Source: a virus
Strand: one strand, 5' to 3'
DNA length: 36,757 nt
IMG/VR virus record: IMGVR_UViG_3300043465_000560
Coordinates: 1-36,757 of that record
In this document: piece after piece, positions 13,934 through 36,626 of the stretch
Layout: the number at the start of each line of letters is the position of its first letter
Position numbering within the stretch: the stretch's first letter is position 1
Notes under the pieces: generated by a model
Told to the model about the DNA's origin: nothing
The model's database searches: none
Seen by the model: the letters and a program-made list of their open reading frames with translations, nothing else
Program-made: the position numbers and the translations under genes

Positions 13934-15952
13934 TCAGGCGCCCGGATTGAACCAGCCGCCACGGAAGCCGATAGCGCCGACAGCGAAGTCATGCACCACT
14001 TCAACCTTAATGCCATCCGTACCAGGTACGTACTGATGCACGCGGATCTGTGGCGCAGTCTGGCCATTTACATAGCCGTACACGTAAATCGGAGCGGCCG
14101 CCGGGTCCGCAAACATATACCAGCGGTTGCCGGTAATGTTGGCGTCACTAATCGGAATAAGATCGGAATACAGCCCAACATTGGCGCCGCTCTCGGCAGT
14201 GATGCGGGTCGTATACCGAAGCGCCGCGCCACGGTACGCGGTGCCGGTCAGCAGATAGCGGGGCTGCAAATTGAGCTTGATCCCGTCAAGACTGGTCGCG
14301 TTCTGAATGCCGGCATAACCCGCATCAAGCGTAGTTTCAGAAATCGTCGCGCCAGAGCTGGCCTTGTTGCCTCGGCCAGTCGTAAAGACTGCCGCAGAGC
14401 CTTCCAGCAGCGTCGGGCCGTTGCCGGTCGCCGTCTCGACCATGGAATAAGCGAGGAAGTTTTCGTAATCGGCAATCCGCCGACCAATCATGGCGCCAAA
14501 GTCAGAAAAGGCGCCAAGATCGTCATTGACGAGCATCTGCCGGGTAACGCCAACGCTGCGGGCGTAAGTCTTCGGCGTAATGCGTTCACGCTTTTCAGAG
14601 ATAGTGCCGCCCTTGATCTCGCCGCCCTCGCCAAGCTCCTGCGGAGCCGGGAAGTCGCCGGCGGTCAGGAACGTATGCGCCTTGAAGTCGTTAAACGAAC
14701 GCTGGCCAAAAAACTGCCGGTAACTAGGCGCGGCCGCAACAAACCCAGCCTCAAGCATCTTGTTGCCTGCGTTTTCCAAAAGCATCGGGAAGTCGCTCGA
14801 CGTGTGGAAAGCTCGCTCAACAAACTGCCCGCGCTGGCGCGGGGAAACATGCTCGCCACGCGCCGCGATCAGCTCCAGCATCATGTCGGACGGCTTAAGC
14901 GCGGCAAATTCGCGCCAGCGGTCGTCCTTAATGCTGCGTGCCATCGCAGGCATCGATCGAACCGCAAGGGCTGTGCCCATCGCATCAATCAACGCGGCCG
15001 GGTCATCGCCAGAACGCCCGACATGGGCAGTCTGCGTCGGAACGGTGACGCCCGCCTGCGTCATAGCGGCCAGCCTATCGAACGCCATAGCGCGCACCGC
15101 TTCGGGCATCATGCCATCGTTAATGGCCTGCGCGCGAAGGTCAGCCCGCACTGCTTCGGGCAAAAGTCGGGAAGCGTTTGAAAGAACGCCATCAACCGCT
15201 GCAATCCGCGCGCGTTCTGCATTAACCGCGCTGGCTCGCTCGGCCTGAATATCAACAACAACCGCGTCGGAACCCGGCGCGGCAGGCGTGACGTTTTCCG
15301 TCATAGTCTGCTCCTGAGAAGCGGCCGGGGCCGCAGTGATGGAAATAGGCACTTTTCGCTCGGCAAGCGCCGGCGCATCGTCCACGGCAAAATCCGCTGT
15401 TTCCGTGGCCACGAATTGAGAAGCACCATCATCAATCGCGCGCATAATAGCGCCGTCGTCGACGGGTATTGGTGCCAAGCTAATTTCCAAAGGCTCCCAA
15501 TCCACTGCGCGGTGGATTGTTTCTGAGCCTTCATTGACTGGCATATATTTTCGCACTGTGTACCCAACACTAACACTGCGAATGGTGCCATCCATAACGC
15601 GATGCCATAGCGGCTCAACATCTGGCGCGCTGCTAAATTGCAGCGTTGCTATCCCGCGCTTACTTTCCAATTTAGCCGAAACAACTCGTCCAATTTGATC
15701 CCGCGCACCGCCTTTGCGGTGACTATCAAAAACAGGAGCGTTGCCGCTTGAAAGCCGCGCCATCCGGACAGACGCAGCCGACAAGTCTAGCTCTTCGGTA
15801 ATAGCACCAATGCCAGGAACGTAGTTTTTTGCGCGCTTGCCAGTCGTCCAAATGACGTCAACCGTGCGGTTGTCTTTATCAATAGACATCGGCGCAGTTA
15901 GGGCACGCACAATAATTGCGGCACTGTCAACCTGTTGCAAGTCGTCACTCAT
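13934..15952 (-). CDS. Prohead protease / major capsid protein fusion
   Basis: The 672-residue protein joins two normally separate enzymes. Residues 1-190 resemble a U35-type prohead protease: NRTVDVIWTTGKRAKNYVPG, SGNAPVFDSHRKGGARDQIG (candidate catalytic His) and GTIRSVSVGYTVRKYMPVNE (candidate Ser), then WEPLEISLAPIPVDDGAIM. A linker of about 190 residues with a helical scaffold-like part follows (VDIQAERASAVNAERARIA). The major capsid domain fills about residues 360-672 (FHTSSDFPMLLENAGNKMLE, ITPKTYARSVGVTRQMLVND, PRYLLTG, and the end VEVVHDFAVGAIGFRGGW). The protease would cleave the scaffold and free the capsid subunit during maturation. The ATG overlaps the portal stop (ATGA). Confidence 0.85.
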   Translation of the reverse strand: MSDDLQQVDSAAIIVRALTAPMSIDKDNRTVDVIWTTGKRAKNYVPGIGAITEELDLSAASVRMARLSSGNAPVFDSHRKGGARDQIGRVVSAKLESKRGIATLQFSSAPDVEPLWHRVMDGTIRSVSVGYTVRKYMPVNEGSETIHRAVDWEPLEISLAPIPVDDGAIMRAIDDGASQFVATETADFAVDDAPALAERKVPISITAAPAASQEQTMTENVTPAAPGSDAVVVDIQAERASAVNAERARIAAVDGVLSNASRLLPEAVRADLRAQAINDGMMPEAVRAMAFDRLAAMTQAGVTVPTQTAHVGRSGDDPAALIDAMGTALAVRSMPAMARSIKDDRWREFAALKPSDMMLELIAARGEHVSPRQRGQFVERAFHTSSDFPMLLENAGNKMLEAGFVAAAPSYRQFFGQRSFNDFKAHTFLTAGDFPAPQELGEGGEIKGGTISEKRERITPKTYARSVGVTRQMLVNDDLGAFSDFGAMIGRRIADYENFLAYSMVETATGNGPTLLEGSAAVFTTGRGNKASSGATISETTLDAGYAGIQNATSLDGIKLNLQPRYLLTGTAYRGAALRYTTRITAESGANVGLYSDLIPISDANITGNRWYMFADPAAAPIYVYGYVNGQTAPQIRVHQYVPGTDGIKVEVVHDFAVGAIGFRGGWFNPGA

Positions 15953-20494: not shown

Positions 20495-20977
20495 TCAAAT
20501 ACCGGGCGCTCTTGCAACCCCTATTCGCTGCCTCCGCGCATCCTCCTCGGTAATGGCAGGGTCTACCCGACGATACCGGCTCACCTCGCGCCATGCGTCT
20601 TGAACAGCGGATATCGCTGCGTCGGGTGGCGCAATCACCCACTCTTCAGGCTCGTTGTAGGTGCGACCCAACTTCCTCAACGCCACCTCTTCCACGTCCT
20701 TGGCCGCCTCTACCGTAACAGCCAGCACATAAGCCATGCTGGCGCCTATCTCCTTGGCCCGGCGAATAGGGTCCGACGTAACGCCAACCTTGGTCAGCCC
20801 CGCCGCAGCCGCCACGTAGACAAACGCAGGCTTGCCCTTTCGCAAGCTGCCGTAGGTCTTCTGGCGGCGCCTCGCCGCGTGCTGAAGCGGGGGCGATCGA
20901 AAGAAAATGTAATTGGTGCCGACCTTCATGCGGTCTGGCGCAGCCCACGGATCGGGCGCATCTTCGTCATCAGTCAT
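20495..20977 (-). CDS. GIY-YIG / T5orf172-like protein
   Basis: The 160-residue protein has an N-terminal arm (MKVGTNYIFFRSPP) and a core FVYVAAAAGLTKVGVTSDPI, RRAKEIGASMAYVLAVTVEA, EEVALRKLGRTYNEPEEWVI, matching the T5orf172/MUG113 branch of GIY-YIG nucleases: degenerate 'VYV', K-V-G-x-T-x-D-P-x-x-R, then a strand and a Glu-rich helix. The basic helix with Arg after the DP and EEW would supply active-site residues. It is the last gene before the operon terminator and lies near the terminase. It could be a packaging-associated nuclease, a free-standing homing-type nuclease, or inactive. The ribosome site is AGGAA. Confidence 0.55.
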   Translation of the reverse strand: MTDDEDAPDPWAAPDRMKVGTNYIFFRSPPLQHAARRRQKTYGSLRKGKPAFVYVAAAAGLTKVGVTSDPIRRAKEIGASMAYVLAVTVEAAKDVEEVALRKLGRTYNEPEEWVIAPPDAAISAVQDAWREVSRYRRVDPAITEEDARRQRIGVARAPGI

Positions 20978-21114
20978 GGCGTGTTTCCTACGCTGTGATC
21001 AGGTGCCGGCGAGGTGTTCCACCACCAAACCGGCGCCGCTCTTATAGCACACATGGCATTGATGCGGAACGATTTACCGCATCCCCCAATGCCCGGCCAG
21101 CACGTCCAGCCCAT
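20974..21114 (-). CDS. Possible 46-aa orphan ORF
   Basis: This reading frame ends with a TGA that overlaps the GIY-YIG start as ATGA, the pattern used throughout this operon, and it would fill the 97-base gap after the 168-residue gene. It starts MGWTCWPGIGGCG and ends NTSPAPDHSVGNTP. A shorter start (MCAIRAAPVWWW) is also possible. The first third overlaps the upstream gene. Composition is odd (many Trp and Cys) and no homolog comes to mind, so it may not be expressed. Confidence 0.2.
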   Translation of the reverse strand: MGWTCWPGIGGCGKSFRINAMCAIRAAPVWWWNTSPAPDHSVGNTP

Positions 21115-21580
21115 CGCGCACATGCGGAGGATGCCTCGGCACCCCGCGCAGCACGGCATCCCGTACAGCCTCGCCCAGCGGCTCAGAAAGGCGCGCCATG
21201 GCTTTCTGGTAGTCCTGCCACGCCCGCGACGCCGCAAGGTGCTGGTCGTGCGTCAGGTGCCGCCTGCCGCCGTGTCCTGCGCCGCTGCCATACCCGCCGG
21301 GTAGCTCGCACCCAGGCAGGCAGTCAGCCCATAGGCCGCGCAGGTAAGCCGCCGCATCGCGTTGCAGCAGCGTGAGGCCCATGGCGCTCAGGATGTCTTC
21401 GTCGGCCATGTAGACCTCGCGCACGCCTGCCCGCATGGTCTCCTGCGTCCTAGTCTCCCGAGCCTCGGCAGCGCCGCCGGGCGTGCCAGCGATGGCCATT
21501 GCCGCGCGCTCCCGTGCGGCTTGGCGCATGGCTCGCTTAGACGCAAGAACGCGGGCGGCGGGGTCAAGCATGGCGTTCAT
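21074..21580 (-). CDS. Orphan helical protein, 168 aa
   Basis: The start is the ATG at 21580 (MNAMLDPAARVLASKRAMRQ), with AAGGA 8 bases upstream and an ATGA overlap with the 30-residue membrane peptide. The protein is charged and helical with a Gly-rich middle (PGGYGSGAGHGGRRH). Its end, VRDGLDVLAGHWGMR, recalls the 'GLDxLAxHxG' ending of DUF6456-type helix-turn-helix proteins of alphaproteobacteria. Being near the end of the early operon and just before the late genes, it is where a late regulator might sit, but I cannot demonstrate this. Confidence 0.5.
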   Translation of the reverse strand: MNAMLDPAARVLASKRAMRQAARERAAMAIAGTPGGAAEARETRTQETMRAGVREVYMADEDILSAMGLTLLQRDAAAYLRGLWADCLPGCELPGGYGSGAGHGGRRHLTHDQHLAASRAWQDYQKAMARLSEPLGEAVRDAVLRGVPRHPPHVRDGLDVLAGHWGMR

Positions 21581-21669
21581 GGGGCGTCCTTCCCAGCGTT
21601 GCTGCCGATCCAATAACCGAACACAAGGCCGACCAAGGCCCCGAACAAATAGGCCCCCATGTACGTCAT
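21577..21669 (-). CDS. 30-aa single-pass membrane peptide
   Basis: The peptide MTYMGAYLFGALVGLVFGYW (then IGSNAGKDAP) is almost entirely one transmembrane segment with a short hydrophilic tail. Its ATG overlaps the TGA of the gene before it and its TGA overlaps the ATG of the gene after it (ATGA on both sides), which strongly supports expression despite its size. It could be a small holin-like or inner-membrane protein; nothing in the sequence decides this. Confidence 0.6.
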   Translation of the reverse strand: MTYMGAYLFGALVGLVFGYWIGSNAGKDAP

Positions 21670-22007
21670 GGCTTCTCTCCATCGCTCGCGGGCGGGGGCG
21701 ACAGGGCGGCTAGAGCGCGACCGTGCGGCGTCTCATGTGAAATCGAGCGGGCGCCCGGTAAATGCGGCAATGCCGCCCACAGCGCCGCCCGCAGCCGCGC
21801 AATCTCGGCGTCCCGCGCGGCTAGCGCGTCGGCTGCCTCAATCACGTCTCCATGCAGGTCTGTGGCGTGCCTAATCCACGGCACGGTTGCGACCACCTCG
21901 CCGTCGAGGGTCAGGCACGCGTGCGTGTCGTAGTCCGAGGCGCCCCATCGCCGCAACCTCGCCACGAGGTCGCCCGGCAGCGCCGCGCGCGTGTTTTCAG
22001 CGGTCAT
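21666..22007 (-). CDS. Orphan protein, 113 aa
   Basis: The start is the ATG at 22007 (MTAENTRAALPGDLVARLRR), which overlaps the TGA before it (ATGA). The first 50 residues include DYDTHACLTLDGEVVATVPW, followed by an Ala-rich coiled helix (AADALAARDAEIARLRAALW) and a Pro/Ser tail. The layout, a short N-terminal helix (LVARLRRWG) plus a coiled coil with ERD/ARD repeats, is typical of phage Ea22-like and other early-region orphan proteins. No function is known to me. Confidence 0.55.
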   Translation of the reverse strand: MTAENTRAALPGDLVARLRRWGASDYDTHACLTLDGEVVATVPWIRHATDLHGDVIEAADALAARDAEIARLRAALWAALPHLPGARSISHETPHGRALAALSPPPASDGEKP

Positions 22008-22159
22008 GGCAGCGCCTCCACATCCCCGTCGTCTTCGCTCGGCGCCCGCCATTCCTCGCGCTGTTCGACCATTGCCCCGGCGCGCCACGACGTGATGCGC
22101 CACAGCGTGCGGGTTGCCTCGCGCGCGATGACCTCGCGCGTTGTCCATTCGCGGTTCAT
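22004..22159 (-). CDS. Small orphan, 51 aa
   Basis: The peptide starts MNREWTTREVIAREATRTLW and ends EEWRAPSEDDGDVEALP. The start overlaps the preceding stop by one base (TGATG) and its own stop overlaps the next start (ATGA). Arg/Trp-rich N-terminal and acidic C-terminal parts are visible; there is no membrane segment. The overlap pattern is the only evidence that it is a gene. Confidence 0.5.
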   Translation of the reverse strand: MNREWTTREVIAREATRTLWRITSWRAGAMVEQREEWRAPSEDDGDVEALP

Positions 22160-22461
22160 CACGCGCCCCTCCCACAAAGCCCATCCGGCTCCTGCATCGG
22201 CGCCGGCATCCGCATCCCCGCGATTTCTGCCGCCAGCGACGGATACTGCCGCGCCACGCGGTCCAGTATCGCGGACTGCGCCACGAGCCATCCGGTGCGC
22301 CAGGCTTCCGCTTCGCCTGTGGTCATGGCGCCATATGCCGTTTTAAAGCGTTCTGACGGGGCTACAGCGGCTTGTGGAGGCAGTGGCGCTACCCGCGTAG
22401 TCGCTACCCCGGCAACGGCGCCCCAAGCGGCTCCTAGCGCCATGTAATCGTCCTGCGTCAT
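22159..22461 (-). CDS. Small orphan, 100 aa
   Basis: The protein starts MTQDDYMALGAAWGAVAGVA with a mildly hydrophobic N-terminus, has a Pro-rich linker (RVAPLPPQAAVAPSERF) and a helical section (AEAWRTGWLVAQSAILDRVA). Both ends overlap neighbouring genes (ATGA upstream, TGATG downstream). I recognise no family. Confidence 0.5.
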   Translation of the reverse strand: MTQDDYMALGAAWGAVAGVATTRVAPLPPQAAVAPSERFKTAYGAMTTGEAEAWRTGWLVAQSAILDRVARQYPSLAAEIAGMRMPAPMQEPDGLCGRGA

Positions 22462-23033
22462 GCTGCGTGTTCCTCCTGCCCGAATGGCACTTCGTCCGCC
22501 GGCAACCGGCCGGCGCGGGGTCGAACGGTCATCGTGGCGCCCGGAAATGCGTCCATGACCCGGCGCGCGACGACTGCGGCGCTGCCTAGGATTGCGGTCA
22601 TGGCCTCGGGGCTGCGGGTAATGGCGCAGTGGACCACCTCGACCGCCGGCCAGATGTCCACATCGACGCGGAGGTAATCCGCCGTTGCGCGCACCCGCTT
22701 GCCGTGCGCCTCACTGGCAACGATGGCGATGTTGTCGCCCAACAGGTACCACGGGCGGTCTAGGTCTTCCGGCATGCCGATTTGCGGCGGCGCTGCCTCC
22801 CAAGTCAGGCTAGCCGCCTCGGCAGCGCCTGCCGCCGTTGCCGCTGCGTCCAGCGCCTGCCATCCCCTAGCCATCGCGGCGCATAGGTCCGGGGCATTGC
22901 TGCCGTCGCGGAGCTTCCGCGTCATCAGGTCGAACTTGGCTGCCAGGTCGGCAGACACCAGCAGCGGCAGGCGGCCGATGCCCCAGCGCCGTTCCGCCGT
23001 GGAGGCGATTAGGTCGAGTTCGGCGGGGGTCAT
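22458..23033 (-). CDS. Orphan phage protein, 191 aa
   Basis: The start is the ATG at 23033 (MTPAELDLIASTAERRWGIG), overlapping the TGA of the gene before it (ATGA). The first part reads RLPLLVSADLAAKFDLMTRK, a helical pattern I associate with uncharacterised phage proteins of alphaproteobacteria. Beta-strand-rich middle and C-terminal parts follow (DRPWYLLGDNIAIVAS, WPAVEVVHCAITRSPEAMTA). No catalytic motif stands out. It sits in the run of small genes downstream of the primase gene. Confidence 0.55.
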   Translation of the reverse strand: MTPAELDLIASTAERRWGIGRLPLLVSADLAAKFDLMTRKLRDGSNAPDLCAAMARGWQALDAAATAAGAAEAASLTWEAAPPQIGMPEDLDRPWYLLGDNIAIVASEAHGKRVRATADYLRVDVDIWPAVEVVHCAITRSPEAMTAILGSAAVVARRVMDAFPGATMTVRPRAGRLPADEVPFGQEEHAA

Positions 23034-23434
23034 GCCGACGCCTTGCGGCGGTGTTGGGGGCACCCTTTCGCCACATAGCCGCTGTTCAAGTTCTTCTGGC
23101 TGTTGGTCGTCTCAAAGCCCGCGCCGCAAGTGGCGCATTCGCCCCAGAGCCGGATCGCCACAGTAACGCCGGCCTTGCTCGGCAGCGGCACCCATCCGAG
23201 GCAGACGTATTCGCGCCCCCGGATCGTGGCCTTTCCGCCGTCCGTGAGTGTGTTCCACAAATTAGACGATTGCGCTGCGTCGGGTCGCAACAGGACCCCG
23301 TCTGCCGCACACGTGCGTCGGGTCTGCGACGTATGCAGACCGACGCGCGGGTGCGACGGGTCCTTACTGGCAAACCGGACCCGACGCACACTTTTTGCGT
23401 CGGGTTTGCGTCGGGTCTTCGTCGCGTCAGTCAT
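23030..23434 (-). CDS. Cys-motif orphan protein, 134 aa, carrying an iteron-like array
   Basis: The start is the ATG at 23434 (MTDATKTRRKPDAKSVRRVR), which overlaps the primase stop (ATGA). The N-terminal 50 residues are Arg/Lys-rich and encoded by the repeated decamers described separately. The C-terminal half has EYVCLGWVPLPSKAGVTVAI and a Cys cluster (ECATCGAGFE...KGCPQHRR) that could bind zinc. A basic N-terminus with a zinc-ribbon-like C-terminus suggests nucleic acid binding; this is inference. The repeats make the N-terminal coding sequence do double duty. Confidence 0.55.
   Translation of the reverse strand: MTDATKTRRKPDAKSVRRVRFASKDPSHPRVGLHTSQTRRTCAADGVLLRPDAAQSSNLWNTLTDGGKATIRGREYVCLGWVPLPSKAGVTVAIRLWGECATCGAGFETTNSQKNLNSGYVAKGCPQHRRKASA
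23276..23416. repeat. Iteron-like array of decamer TGCGTCGGGT
   Basis: Exact plus-strand copies lie at 23276-23285, 23314-23323, 23396-23405 and 23407-23416. An inverted exact copy lies at 23379-23388 and a one-mismatch copy at 23352-23361. The first three plus-strand sites are exactly 38 bp apart (23276, 23314, 23352). The inverted copy and the copy at 23396 form a 9-bp hairpin. The copies are read in two different frames (T-R-R and P-D-A), so protein repetition does not explain them. Confidence 0.75.
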
Positions 23435-25581
23435 TGCGCGTATCCCTCTCGGCTTTGGCGTCTCATTTCCTGGATCATGTCGTGATTGACGGTGTATCCC
23501 TGGCGCTTGTGCCCACGGCGCGGGCTGTCCTCCGGGCCTTCGATCAGGGCGCCGGCTTGCTTCCATGCGCCTAGGATCGAGGCGGCTTGGCCTTCGGTCT
23601 TGCTGTACGGTTCGGCCATCAGGAGACGCCCGGCCCAATCGTCGCCGGCCTGCTTTTTCGCCGCGTAGGGAATGCCGTTGGTGCCCTGCCCGATGGCAGT
23701 GAGAACGGCGACGCATTGGGCCATAGACAGGCCGGCAAAGGCGCTAGGCGGCTCCCACGGCAGGCATGCGGCGATGTGTTCGCCGTTGCCGATCTGGTAG
23801 CCTTCCAGCTTGAACCACTCGGCTTCGCCAGCAATGGCGTAGTTGCTCTTGGCACCGTCAATGCGGAAATGCCGGCGACGATGCTCGGGCGCGATGCCCA
23901 GCTTGTCGGCTTCCTCGACCGACATCGTGGTCAGGGTCATCATCACCCGAACGGCGCCAGTGATGGCCGAGGCGCCGCGCATGCGGTCCATGTCGCCCGG
24001 CGCGTTGTTGCCCTTGCGGTCGTGGTGGAGGATCATTACGGCGATATCCAGGCGCCGCGCGAGGCCCCGGAAGGCCGCAATTACGGACCGCATGGCCGTG
24101 TTGTCGTTCTCTTCGGCGTTGTGCAGTTCGGCCAGCGGGTCGCAGATCAGAACCTCGGCTTCGCTCTCCATGCACAGCCGCTCAAGCGCCTGCATGGCGT
24201 TGGTCTCCGCGATACGCCCGGTTGCGGGATCGCGCTCAAACAGGGTGCCAACGTCGTGCGGGCCGCAGCGGATAATGTCGGGCATGACTTCCGCGCCGTT
24301 GGCTTCCACGGCCATCAGGGCGGCGCTGTAGCGGCGTTGCTGTTCCTCGCGGTCGTCCTCGACGTTGTAGTTGATGCAGCGCATGGGCTTGCGGGGCGTG
24401 AAGGCGCCAAGCGCTTGGCCGGTCGCGCATGCGATGGTCCATGCGACCACAAGGGACGACTTGCCGCCTGCGCCCTGCCCGCTGAGGACCGACACGGCGC
24501 CACGCATGAGGTAGCCTGGCACCGACCATGGTCGGGCTGGGATAGCTGCTGCGTCCCATGTGCCCGCGTCGATCCAGAGGGGCGAACGGATCGGCGTAAC
24601 CTGTTGATTTTGCTCCACCACGAGGTTTGGCCTCGGGGTGGCTTCCCCCGTCTCCGGGTCAATGCCATCTGGCACGCTATCGGCACTTGGGATGCCAAAC
24701 GGCGCCCGCGCCAGCGTCACTTGCCGCTCTGGCACCTGGCGCGGCGCGGCCATGCCTGCGGCAAAGCCTTCGCGCAGGGTGCGCTGTGCCGCCGGGTAGT
24801 CCTCGCACCGGGATTGGATGTCGGCCAGCGCGGCGCGGAGTTCGGACAGCGCGGCGCCCTCGGGCAGTTCGCCCGCCGCGACCAGCCCGGCCACGGAATA
24901 TGCGGCTTTGTTGAGCGCATGGTGCTTGCCGCCGTCCGGGGCGTTTCGGATGTTGGCTGCCTCGCGTTCCAGCGCCGCCCGGCCATAGGGCGTGCCGTCG
25001 CCCGTGTAGGGCTGGCGCGGCAAGGACGGCGTGGGTGCTGGCGCCTGATACGGCGGGTCGAGCAGGTCGAGCAGCCATGCCGGCATCTCGGCGGGCATGG
25101 CGTCATCGGTGATCGTGTAGCCATCGGACGGCGGGACGATCACATAGCCACCCGCGCCCCGGACATCGACGCCCGGCGCCACCTTGCTGGCGCTGTTCCG
25201 GATCGTGCGGCCTGCCGGGTAGTTGAACAGCAGGTGGCGCCCGCCGCTCCGCGTGCCATGCTGGCGGGTTCGGGGTAGCCTGTGCTGGTTGGCTGCCAGC
25301 CATTCCAGCCCGCCGCCGCCGTGCTTTACGTCAAGGTCAACAACGGCAAGGCGGGACGCTGGCCCGGTTGGGACGCCGATCAGCCGGGCGCCGGGCTGCG
25401 CGAACATGGCGCGGACGGCGGCGGGATCGCGGCTGGCATCGTAGAAGCCATGGGCCGTGATCGGCCGTTTATCGACGCCGCAGGGGAACACGGGCCATTG
25501 CTGCGCGAGGAACGCGGCGGCGTCGGCTATGCCGGGCCATGCCTTCGCACCGTCGCCGTGGGTTGGTAGGCTGTCCGGCAT
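23431..25581 (-). CDS. Primase-polymerase (AEP) / RepA-like helicase ATPase
   Basis: The ATG at 25581 gives 716 residues; a GTG one codon earlier is also possible. The N-terminal 180 residues form a bifunctional primase-polymerase domain: FPCGVDKRPITAHGFYDAS, the metal motif RLAVVDLDVKHGG (D-x-D) and TRSGGRHLLFNYP. The C-terminal part from about residue 330 is a RecA/RepA-like ATPase: Walker A VLSGQGAGGKSSLVV, NYNVEDDREEQQRR, Walker B EVLICDPLAELHN, and MILHHDRKGNN. This is the standard phage/plasmid initiator replicase, which would prime and unwind the phage origin. The decamer array begins 15 bases beyond its 3' end. Confidence 0.85.
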   Translation of the reverse strand: MPDSLPTHGDGAKAWPGIADAAAFLAQQWPVFPCGVDKRPITAHGFYDASRDPAAVRAMFAQPGARLIGVPTGPASRLAVVDLDVKHGGGGLEWLAANQHRLPRTRQHGTRSGGRHLLFNYPAGRTIRNSASKVAPGVDVRGAGGYVIVPPSDGYTITDDAMPAEMPAWLLDLLDPPYQAPAPTPSLPRQPYTGDGTPYGRAALEREAANIRNAPDGGKHHALNKAAYSVAGLVAAGELPEGAALSELRAALADIQSRCEDYPAAQRTLREGFAAGMAAPRQVPERQVTLARAPFGIPSADSVPDGIDPETGEATPRPNLVVEQNQQVTPIRSPLWIDAGTWDAAAIPARPWSVPGYLMRGAVSVLSGQGAGGKSSLVVAWTIACATGQALGAFTPRKPMRCINYNVEDDREEQQRRYSAALMAVEANGAEVMPDIIRCGPHDVGTLFERDPATGRIAETNAMQALERLCMESEAEVLICDPLAELHNAEENDNTAMRSVIAAFRGLARRLDIAVMILHHDRKGNNAPGDMDRMRGASAITGAVRVMMTLTTMSVEEADKLGIAPEHRRRHFRIDGAKSNYAIAGEAEWFKLEGYQIGNGEHIAACLPWEPPSAFAGLSMAQCVAVLTAIGQGTNGIPYAAKKQAGDDWAGRLLMAEPYSKTEGQAASILGAWKQAGALIEGPEDSPRRGHKRQGYTVNHDMIQEMRRQSREGYAQ

Positions 25582-25623
25582 CACCTGGCGCGGCCCTCGC
25601 TTGGGGTTTCGTCGTGGTGGTGT

Positions 25624-26714: not shown

Positions 26715-27088
26715 AGCGACCACCCGAAGCTGTTCAACGCCGCCACGGCTTCGTCCTGGCTCGTGACGATGGCAACGGGGATGCCAAGCGCGCGAAGCTG
26801 GTCGTGCATCGCATGCTGATCGTCGCGCACGGCGCTGGCGGTGTAGCCAGGGCGCTTAACTTCAAGCAGCGCATGTCGCCCGCCCGCGCCGTAGCAGAGC
26901 AGATCGGGGAAGCCGGATCGCATCCCCTGCCCTTTCAGCCGCTTCGCCGCGATGGCGCCGCCCTTAAGCGCCGCACCGTTGGGAACGTGGACGGCCATGA
27001 CGCCGCGCATGCGCAGGCGGTCGATGATCGCGCGTTGCACGGCTTCCTCTAGGGGCGCGGGGATGCGTAATTTACGGGCGGCGGGCAT
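26711..27088 (-). CDS. VRR-NUC domain nuclease
   Basis: The start is the ATG at 27088 (MPAARKLRIPAPLEEAVQRA), overlapping the stop before it by one base. The 125-residue protein is a minimal VRR-NUC fold (PD-(D/E)xK superfamily): EEAVQRAIIDRLRMRGVMAV, VPNGAALKGG, QGMRSGFPDLLCYG (catalytic Asp), HALLEVKRPGY (Glu and Lys) and DDQHAMHDQLRALGIPVAIV. Family members cut branched DNA and are common in phage replication modules next to SNF2 helicases. A junction-resolvase or end-processing role for replicating DNA is likely. Confidence 0.8.
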   Translation of the reverse strand: MPAARKLRIPAPLEEAVQRAIIDRLRMRGVMAVHVPNGAALKGGAIAAKRLKGQGMRSGFPDLLCYGAGGRHALLEVKRPGYTASAVRDDQHAMHDQLRALGIPVAIVTSQDEAVAALNSFGWSL

Positions 27089-27858
27089 CACTGCGTCCCA
27101 TCCAGCAAATGCGGATGCTTGCGCCGCAGCCATCGTAGCCGCGTGGTCACAGCGGTTTCGCTGCACCCGAGGGTTTCAGCCATGCGGCGCTGCGAGACGC
27201 CTTTGCGGTGCATGATGACCAGCTTCGCAATGTGCGCCTGCGTAAAGCGGAACCGCGATGCCAAGTCGTAGGATGTCCTCATGACCCGCATCGCTTCAAC
27301 GGTGCGGCCTTCGACAATGGCGATCTGCCGCCAGGTCATGCCGTCAGAGCGCATTGCAATCACGCGCTCAATCATTTCGGGCGTGATGCGCTTGCGTTCA
27401 TTGAATGGCACAACTGGCGGCAGCGAAGGCACCCGCGCGCCGCCGTGCGATCCCTGTATTCCCAGGGCTTTGACTTTGCTGTGGATCGCGGTTGGTTTCT
27501 TTCCAAGCGCCTTGCCGATCTGCGCAGCAGTGGCGCCCGCTTCGCGCATGTTGACCAGCGTCGCAACCTGCTCCGGGCTCCACCGCGATGGATCGCATGC
27601 AGCTCCGGCCCTTTTGCAGAGCGTTTGCGCCCATCGGATCGAGCAACCAAGTTCGGCTGCTACCTGCTTCCACAGCATGCCTTGCTCACGCAGCGTCTTG
27701 GCCCGCTGCTCAGAAAGAGCGCCGGGGGCGGCCGGTGCGCACGCCCCCGGCGCCAAGTGACCGCCGGCCCGCGCGGATGCACAGTCGGCCGGCGGCTCCA
27801 CGCGCGGGGAGGAGGGAGAGAACCCGGCATCGTAGCTGTTGTGGTGCGCGGCGCTCAT
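27088..27858 (-). CDS. Multi-helix-turn-helix DNA-binding protein
   Basis: The 256-residue protein has a disordered N-terminus of about 45 residues (SPSSPRVEPPADCASARAGG) and then several tandem HTH-like units: LREQGMLWKQVAAELGCS, WSPEQVATLVNMREAGATAA with IGKALGKKPTAIHSKVKALG, ITPEMIERVIAMRSDGMTWR and RFTQAHIAKLVIMHRKGVSQ with RMAETLGCSETAVTTRLRWL. Units with 'W-S/T-x-E-x-V...L...G.t...IA..LG.t..AV..R...L' resemble SANT/GcrA-like regulators. It could be an early transcription regulator or origin-binding factor. The ATG overlaps the methyltransferase stop (TAATG). Confidence 0.65.
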   Translation of the reverse strand: MSAAHHNSYDAGFSPSSPRVEPPADCASARAGGHLAPGACAPAAPGALSEQRAKTLREQGMLWKQVAAELGCSIRWAQTLCKRAGAACDPSRWSPEQVATLVNMREAGATAAQIGKALGKKPTAIHSKVKALGIQGSHGGARVPSLPPVVPFNERKRITPEMIERVIAMRSDGMTWRQIAIVEGRTVEAMRVMRTSYDLASRFRFTQAHIAKLVIMHRKGVSQRRMAETLGCSETAVTTRLRWLRRKHPHLLDGTQ

Positions 27859-35453: not shown

Positions 35454-35716
35454 GTGACGCCCCGCGCTGGCTATGCCGCGACGCGCTGGCGACATACATC
35501 AGTGTCCGCGCCGATGCCGTCGCCCGACTACAGAAAGCCGGGCGCCTTCCCGCGCCGTCGTACCATTTAGGCCCAAGGCAACCGCGCTGGGACCGTGACA
35601 AGGTAGACGTCACCTTGTCGGGCGGGGTAGCCTCGACGGACCCCAGGACAGCCATCAATGCCCTCGCTAACAGCATCGCCGGCCGGCGTCAGGCGCGTCC
35701 GCAAGCGCCTCGCTGA
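35450..35716 (+). CDS. Excisionase-like HTH protein
   Basis: The 88-residue protein has an N-terminal MerR/AlpA-like winged helix: WLCRDALATYISVRADAVAR, LQKAGRLPAPSYHLGPRQPR, WDRDKVD. Size, the HTH with an Arg-Trp wing, and direct location before the integrase identify it as a likely Xis/recombination directionality factor. Its 3' end overlaps the integrase start by 59 bp. Its role would be to bend attachment-site DNA and favour excision. Confidence 0.7.
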   Translation: MSDAPRWLCRDALATYISVRADAVARLQKAGRLPAPSYHLGPRQPRWDRDKVDVTLSGGVASTDPRTAINALANSIAGRRQARPQAPR

Positions 35717-36626
35717 CGGTTCGATCAAGGTCTACGAATACGCCACCGTCAGCAAGGCCCGCACGCGGATAACGCTGCCCGTTGACAGCATTCGCGATCT
35801 ACTCGCCGCGTATGAGCGCAGCCCGGAATGGCGCGGCATGGCGCCTCGGACGCAGAAGAACCGGCTCATTGCGCTGCGGCACCTCCAAGGCATCAAGCAC
35901 CTGTCGGTTGCTGGCCTCAAGCGCCGCGACATCCTGACGTTGCGCGACGCCATCGCGGAAGGCATCGGCCCCGGTGCCGCGAATGCGTTTGCGTCTGGCC
36001 TAGCTGCGCTGCTGTCGTGGGCACGGGATCGCGGCTGGATCGACGCCAGCCCCGCCGACAGGATCAAGGCGATACCTGGCGGGCACTTCCCGACATGGAC
36101 CGAGGACGCGCTAGCCGCAGCCCTTACCGCCGTTCCCGAGCCGATCCGGCGCGCGCTGATCCTCGCCGTCCACACGGGGCAGCGGCGCGGCGATCTTGTC
36201 CAAGCGCGGTGGTCGGATTTCAAGGACGGCGTGTGGCGGATCGCGCAGGAGAAGACCGGCGCGCGGCTGGTGATCCCGCTGCACCCCGATCTTGCCGCAG
36301 AGTTGGATACCTGGCGACGGTCGGCAACGGCGGTCACGGTGCTAACGCAGGGCAACGGCACGCCATGGGACAGGGATGGCCTCACGATGGCCGTGATGCG
36401 GGCTGTGGAGCCGTTGGGCCTCAAGGGCCACAACCTGCACGGTCTCCGCAAGCTGGCGGCTGTGCGGCTCGCGGAGGCCGGCTGTAGCGCGCACGAAATC
36501 GGCAGCATTACGGGGCACAAGAGCTTGGCGGAAATCGAACTCTACACGGCGGCGGCATCGCAGGAGCGGCTGGCGCGATCCGCCGTTGTCCGGTTGCAGG
36601 CGGTTGCAAGGCCGCCGAAAGCATAG
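35658..36626 (+). CDS. int: Tyrosine integrase
   Basis: The 322-residue protein is a phage tyrosine recombinase with an N-terminal arm/SAM-like core-binding domain (YERSPEWRGMAPRTQKNRLI, ANAFASGLAALLSWARDRGW) and a catalytic domain. Active-site residues visible are Arg in HTGQRRGDLVQARW, Lys in QEKTGARLVI, His-x-x-Arg in LHGLRKLAAVRLAEAG, His in SITGHKSLAEI, and the nucleophile Tyr in ELYTAAA. All expected boxes are present, so it should be active. It is the last gene of the rightward operon, and attP is expected in the remaining 131 bases or just beyond. Confidence 0.9.
   Translation: MPSLTASPAGVRRVRKRLADGSIKVYEYATVSKARTRITLPVDSIRDLLAAYERSPEWRGMAPRTQKNRLIALRHLQGIKHLSVAGLKRRDILTLRDAIAEGIGPGAANAFASGLAALLSWARDRGWIDASPADRIKAIPGGHFPTWTEDALAAALTAVPEPIRRALILAVHTGQRRGDLVQARWSDFKDGVWRIAQEKTGARLVIPLHPDLAAELDTWRRSATAVTVLTQGNGTPWDRDGLTMAVMRAVEPLGLKGHNLHGLRKLAAVRLAEAGCSAHEIGSITGHKSLAEIELYTAAASQERLARSAVVRLQAVARPPKA

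Follow-up and report, generated by a model that had tools for sequence, protein, structure and literature searches.

A probable iteron and hairpin replication origin beside the primase-helicase gene of a little-studied phage family, with an iteron motif that varies along with the predicted winged helix of its proposed initiator

What is the function of an array of decamer repeats that directly adjoins the primase-helicase gene of a virus? We addressed this question in IMG/VR record IMGVR_UViG_3300043465_000560, positions 1 to 36,757, and refer to this whole 36,757-nt stretch as the window. Terminase, portal, tail, and integrase genes (the last at 35658-36626) make it a temperate tailed phage by content, and a large protein encoded at 13934-15952 on the minus strand matches, over its whole length, a 'major head and protease protein' family (PHROG 4523). 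A blastn search of positions 21000-25600 against phages gave no match. We conclude below that the decamer array is probably the core of the phage replication origin, an iteron and hairpin element presumably bound by the phage's own fused helicase.

The first-pass annotation had described TGCGTCGGGT in five exact copies and a near copy within 141 bp, and a period of 38 bp, all of which is borne out. Exact plus-strand copies start at 23276, 23314, 23396, and 23407, and an exact minus-strand one at 23379; the copy at 23352 has one mismatch, and the decamers at 23276, 23314, and 23352 are spaced 38 bp. Since the window genes here lie on the minus strand, the motif reads ACCCGACGCA on the coding strand. 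In this direction, a motif search gives iterons 1 (23407-23416) and 2 (23396-23405), both ACCCGACGCA on the minus strand, and iteron 3 (23379-23388), an inverted copy on the plus strand that forms a short dyad with iteron 2. Iteron 4 (23352-23361, minus strand), the near copy ACCCGTCGCA, lies in the 5' arm of a long hairpin, iteron 5 (23314-23323, minus strand, ACCCGACGCA) in its inner stem, and iteron 6 (23276-23285, minus strand, ACCCGACGCA) directly beyond it. Iterons are thus placed before, within, and after the hairpin; the first 180 nt have a GC content of 0.63. With up to one mismatch allowed, TGCGTCGGGT has 15 matches on both window strands, against 3.9 expected (maximum 9 in 100 shuffles). 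A further exact copy reported at 20618 is real but does not belong to the element. We rejected it as an array member and regard it as probably due to chance because it is isolated, the DNA around it shares only short matches of 22 bases or less with the relative L007, and CCGACGCA was not found 2-3 kb downstream of the array in the related record G001; by our estimate, about 0.13 exact matches per window are expected by chance.

The primase-helicase gene (23431-25584, minus strand) ends directly before the array, in agreement with the annotated adjacency. Its 717-aa product, the proposed initiator, was characterized with Pfam, phmmer, and Foldseek. It contains a Prim-Pol domain (PF09250, E 4e-34) and an AAA_25 domain (PF13481, E 1e-31) by Pfam, and its helicase part matches RSF1010 RepA (1g8y, E 1.2e-10) by phmmer, RepA chains also filling the top four Foldseek rows for the predicted helicase fold, with 1nlf first. 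The helicase is therefore of the AAA_25/RSF1010 RepA type, rather than of the DUF927/D5 type of SaPI Rep or of the SF3 type. AlphaFold2 models of both the full-length protein and the isolated domain show, with good confidence, a C-terminal winged helix at residues about 621-700 (23485-23724, minus strand), which is the proposed iteron reader. Nearly all structural matches to this domain are winged-helix proteins of many families, and because these matches are of low significance (best Foldseek E 0.013, best Z 8.0) we claim a fold for it rather than a family or a relative; that P4 alpha, pRN1 ORF904, and SaPI Rep are not among the matches listed for this model carries no weight. The P4 alpha helicase is of another type than the present one. 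Primase, helicase, and winged helix are fused in one ORF, with no separate iteron-binding RepC and primase RepB'. Among the relatives L034, L035, and L065-L074, the N-terminal parts of the primase genes diverge strongly and the helicase part is kept, as if primase modules had been exchanged.

Iterons beside phage replication genes are familiar from lambda O, where they lie inside the initiator gene; the O protein is not a helicase. The analogy with lambda drawn in the first-pass annotation holds for the neighborhood of iterons and replication gene, but not for their exact position, as the array lies just outside the initiator gene, after its stop. A lambda-O-type origin within the initiator gene is rejected on this ground.

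The array had also been described as lying inside a coding gene. An ORF at 23030-23434 on the minus strand does span it: this bridge ORF has an ATG that overlaps the primase stop, crosses the array, and ends in a zinc-ribbon-like part, where its stop is overlapped by the ATG of the next gene (22458-23033, minus strand). In the related loci L040-L060, however, stops occur in all three frames (21 of 21 loci) and the element is kept. An ORF crosses the array here and in most relatives, and the repeats could in principle reflect coding constraint, or chance, in an arginine-rich small protein. We find this hardly credible, given the stops in L040-L060, the peptide sequence, which by eye has no evident common part between motif types, and the copies themselves, which occur in both orientations and use all three frames of the spanning ORF, instead of the two first reported. 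Outside L040-L060, 21 of 21 representatives (a set that excludes L068 and the near-duplicates L007, L009, L018, L037, L063, and L064) have one or more frames open across 180 nt, where shuffles expect 9.9, and the opening ATG or GTG lies between -11 and +4 nt relative to the primase stop. Bridge stop and next start overlap as ATGA in the window, L036, L016, L067, L020, L023, L074, and L101, and as TGATG in L032 and L011; no bridging ORF of at least 30 codons is present in phage 16-3, the Rhodoplanes plasmid, or L102. We infer that the bridge ORF serves to carry ribosomes across the origin. Used as a search query, its zinc-ribbon part matches only L027, on the same contig as L007.

The decamer array first singled out as the feature is present, but it belongs to a larger element that also includes a long imperfect hairpin (23292-23364) whose structure is conserved according to folding and covariation. 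With DNA folding parameters and G-T pairs disallowed, z scores range from -2.8 to -10.2 in 24 of 25 elements, whereas controls from the same loci average near 0, with single controls down to -4.2. In an alignment of seven sequences, pairing is found in 91.1% of cells, two-sided changes in 8 of 30 hairpin pairs, and 12 cells are compensatory against 2.8 after shuffling (0/500), the reference structure being taken from L036, itself an aligned row, which favours it over slid versions. Many relatives also have CTATAG- or CCTAGG-like palindromes at the hairpin foot (by eye). A strong fold with compensatory changes, in a region that is probably transcribed, might instead act in the transcript as a structured RNA, through attenuation, processing, or translation control, the repeats being a by-product. 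This seems quite improbable to us, as such a fold needs no direct repeats in the same orientation, G-U is rare among the compensatory changes, which are Watson-Crick in both partners in nearly every case, the motif follows a domain of DNA-binding type (see below), and no Rfam family is reached at its gathering score. Four weak Rfam matches, all far below the gathering score, were treated as chance.

Relatives of the primase-helicase were collected by profile and protein scans; a first scan of genome contigs gave none, and a second one gave L101 and L102. Copies of 8-mers exceed all 100 dinucleotide shuffles in 33 of 49 regions, taken as the 240 nt after the match end. The other 16 are the 12 type A loci described below, L061, L067, L068, and L071. 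Arrays missed by 8-mer counting were found by a 10-mer search in L061, L067, and L071, and L068 has no array by this search and no strong hairpin (z = -1.0). Relatives with the window's motif keep the spacing, with iterons at about -1 to +31, the inverted copy at +39 to +48, and further iterons at about +70, +107, and +147 from the stop. As the annotation proposed to check, these decamers are retained despite protein change: L007 keeps them with different first codons of the ORF, and L036, L037, and L016 keep them with a different small ORF. Most other relatives have an array at the same place and with a similar layout, built from other motifs. Examples across the loci are ACCCGACGCA, TATCGGGGAT, ACTTGCACGA, CCACTAGCAC, GAACTTCGGG, AGAAGTGCGG, AAAATCCGGC, and GCGACAGTAA, and the consensus decamers of 32 loci (28 from the 10-mer search, without L068, and four named ones) group into 16 clusters at a similarity threshold of 0.8, with 7 clusters at 0.7 and 20 at 0.9.

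Which part of the locus does the motif follow? Among 24 loci (276 pairs), motif similarity correlates with C-terminal domain identity at r 0.66, compared to 0.45 for the helicase. In partial Mantel tests (n=24), the winged helix given the helicase retains r 0.54, with 0/5000 permutations as high, and the helicase given the winged helix gives r -0.09, with 4255/5000, counts that are not strict probabilities because the loci are related and the Mantel pairs are not independent lineages. L036 and L016, which have the window's motif, are 24-27% identical to it in the N-terminal part and 46-54% in the C-terminal part, whereas L032, L009, and L011, which have another motif, are 58-59% identical in the N-terminal part, 72-73% in the helicase, and 34-38% in the C-terminal part. 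Moreover, the wing sequence PRRGH is present in 7/7 C-terminal fragments with a CCG(A/T)CG-class array and in 0/18 others. The motif thus tracks the winged helix, and not the helicase, the primase domain, or the next gene. Binding tests had been proposed for the primase or a multi-HTH protein. The likely binder is the C-terminal winged helix of the primase-helicase, and the multi-HTH protein (27088-27858, minus strand; HTH_7, sigma-70 r4, HTH_38; PHROG D5-like regulator) is placed second because the motif follows the winged helix.

Linkage of winged helix and array as neighbors could alone give part of this motif match. A view based on linkage only is nevertheless opposed by the next genes, since 18 pairs have a common motif (similarity >=0.8) and non-homologous next genes, 26 have homologous next genes and different motifs (similarity <=0.6), and 13 have both in common; it is also opposed by the block exchange described below. 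Covariation with the winged helix would equally fit autoregulation, the array lies between genes reading as one operon, and a multi-HTH gene is present. Still, we consider it unlikely that the array is an operator by which the winged helix or the multi-HTH protein controls downstream transcription or translation, replication starting elsewhere: the array is downstream of the initiator gene and not before it, its motif stays while the next genes differ, and the long hairpin and the skew step (see below) are left unexplained. Plasmid centromeres carry repeat arrays of such a kind too, but a centromere-like partition site (parS) of a phage-plasmid is extremely improbable here, as the co-varying domain belongs to the primase-helicase rather than to ParB or ParR and the window encodes an integrase.

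The related loci L040-L060 fall into two types, A (12 loci, namely L040, L041, L044-L050, L052, L053, and L058, TGTGCA-like motif) and B (9 loci, ACTAGCAC). Type A hairpins are strong and type A iterons weak, their 8-mer counts not exceeding shuffles. Across 108 A-B pairs, mean DNA identity is 81.9% upstream, drops to 67.9% for the winged helix and 55.5% for the array, and is 78.7% on the downstream side; B-B pairs are 99.7% identical in winged helix and array, compared to 90.6% and 82.0% outside. In 100-nt blocks, identity between L041 and L042 is 81-99% across the primase and helicase part, falls to 48-74% across winged helix and array, and recovers to 84-98% in the roughly 700 nt beyond the array, with divergence in the region that follows. 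Between L042 and L054, winged helix and array show 100% identity, and identity is lower further out on either side. These profiles indicate that winged helix and array moved as one block. Smaller changes are seen in L065/L066 and L070/L072, which have GCTCCAGTAA and GCGACAGTAA iterons at matching positions. Between L066 and L072, two bases are changed in each of nine iteron copies, the other 63 iteron bases being identical, compared to 121/224 identical bases in the spacers (the script used three-base windows with a common third base, hence 9/27 identical). Five of 27 loci (L009, L011, L018, L032, and L033) have a palindrome like GTCTCAGAAATGAGAC twice, at about -36/-27 from the primase stop, within the 3' end of that gene, and at about +179/+188, after the array, on both sides with at most one mismatch outside the centre; this pair may be a second binding site or a recombination flank.

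GC skew had been suggested as a check for the origin. The largest upward step of the window is indeed near the array, but the window as a whole shows no clean V. We computed steps with 3-kb flanks in nine records (the window, G001-G006, G009, and G010), and in five of them the record's largest upward step lies less than 1 kb from the primase stop, at +973 in the window, +488 in G001, +273 in G002, -285 in G003, and +261 in G005. The array step of G010 is above every scanned position, with an upstream flank of just 1.75 kb, that of G004 ranks 16/326, and G006 (rank 84/284) and G009 (rank 81/266) show no skew step at the array. Independent lineages are fewer than these records, because the window and G001, and likewise G004, G005, and G010, are close relatives. 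Locus by locus, an increase in skew across the array is seen in 19 of 20. The window step is not explained by a switch in gene direction, since the main ORFs on both sides share a strand. The left half of the window has a GC content of about 0.51-0.64 and the right half one of about 0.63-0.71, which suggests a mosaic genome. Dense short repeats unrelated to the origin array occur about 6.1 kb upstream of it in G009 (GGCGTCCC, 12 copies) and about 6.6 kb upstream in G003 (CGCGAGGT, 7 copies).

Position, winged-helix covariation, hairpin, and skew together support the annotated idea of an iteron-type origin beside a replication gene. In such an origin, the fused Prim-Pol/RepA-type protein would bind the decamers 3' of its own gene through its C-terminal winged helix, and its assembly on iterons at fixed spacing would open the DNA. 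The long hairpin would then be exposed as a structured loading or priming site, at which the helicase ring may load and the Prim-Pol domain may make the first primers. Joint inheritance and exchange of winged helix and array, seen as a sequence pattern, would follow from the need of reader and sites to match.

Several known systems share parts of this layout. As described in excerpts of PMC7581432, SaPI Rep helicases recognise iterons directly downstream of the helicase gene through their C-terminal domain, and SCCmec Cch2 has been shown to bind iterons; PICIs have the same helicase-iteron layout as SaPIs (PMC6092414, in excerpt). Here too, iterons lie directly 3' of the gene of the proposed initiator helicase. 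The presumed C-terminal reader is a predicted winged helix that covaries with the motif. The SaPI and PICI helicases are however of DUF927 or D5 type and not of RSF1010-RepA type, two sets of PICI iterons flank an AT-rich region, and the present family has a long conserved hairpin. According to excerpts of PMC4234260, replication of pRN1 requires a 100-nt stem-loop downstream of the Prim-Pol/helicase/winged-helix gene (ORF904), conserved in structure and poorly in sequence, in an origin described there as lacking iterons. The present family likewise has a stem-loop 3' of a Prim-Pol/helicase/winged-helix gene, its structure kept as the sequence varies, but combines it with iterons and with a RepA-type instead of an SF3 helicase. 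RSF1010 oriV has iterons and hairpins recognised by a primase (PMC4234260, in excerpt), and a hexameric RepA to which the present helicase appears homologous, although RepA, RepB', and RepC are separate proteins there and one fused protein here. Hairpins of RSF1010-type origins serve for single-strand priming, a role that the present hairpin may have. The same excerpts describe phage P4 alpha as a primase and helicase with a winged helix binding origin repeats, an arrangement like the present one but with a Toprim-type primase. The present family would work like SaPI/PICI and pRN1 origins, none of which it matches by helicase type, and its element combines iterons with a long hairpin. Among open-licence papers on the family, SaPI origins, and phage 16-3 replication, we found no description of these arrays.

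Exchange of origin specificity is known by experiment from the PLE satellites, where the initiator DNA-binding domain and the origin iterons are exchanged as one module, with an origin-directed nuclease proposed as driver (PMC8263062, in excerpt). The present winged helix and iterons resemble this module, but the initiator of Vibrio cholerae PLE is RepA_N, without helicase or primase as far as excerpts of PMC7145576 describe it. Iteron diversification has also been reported in geminiviruses (PMC12548392). We tentatively suggest, as a possibility that we hold to be rather less than even, that origin specificity in this phage replicon family, which would be widespread, is one exchangeable cassette of winged helix, iterons, and hairpin, and that it has switched to many codes, each foreign to the others, in response to diversifying pressure, for instance from origin-directed nucleases, satellites, or competing phages. 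The cassette would be hidden in a translated bridge ORF linking the primase gene with its downstream neighbor, which would keep operon expression from being interrupted at the origin. How transcription and translation of an operon pass through an origin is a question that this ORF raises. Types A and B are a natural domain-swap experiment: two similar backgrounds carry different winged helix and array alleles, and origin recognition is therefore directly testable. A recognition code would be easier to learn from a set of many iteron codes that a single small domain reads, and such a set could provide orthogonal replicons.

The origin is indicated for a little-studied phage family to which the laboratory phage 16-3 and prophage-like loci of cultured Alphaproteobacteria are related. 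Among 138 phage and 861 plasmid records with matches, we examined seven named relatives, array scores for these and for cultured genomes being compared with small shuffle sets (8-10). RHph_X2_26 and Azospirillum p4, which are distant relatives, gave no array. Phage 16-3 has a GCGTGACAAA array (score 32.6 against 8.8 for the best shuffle; fold z -6.5) and Rhodoplanes plasmid 1 a GCGTCACCTT array (30.6 against 8.8; z -7.9). Weaker G-rich repeats are found in Methylobacterium pVL1_6 (19.8 against 12.6; z -2.4), Microvirga pR24_3 (15.8 against 11.6; z -3.7), and M. lotononidis unnamed3 (16.2 against 9.4; z 0.7). The cultured genomes of Rhodovarius crocodyli and Neoroseomonas nitratireducens show TGCATCAAAG (20.2 against 11.8; z -5.1) and AGTGGCGCAC (18.0 against 9.4; z -4.4) arrays, respectively. 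Finally, in the plasmids L078, L079, and L080 the Toprim primase is encoded by a gene of its own, with a RepA-type helicase gene after it and G-rich repeats beyond that.
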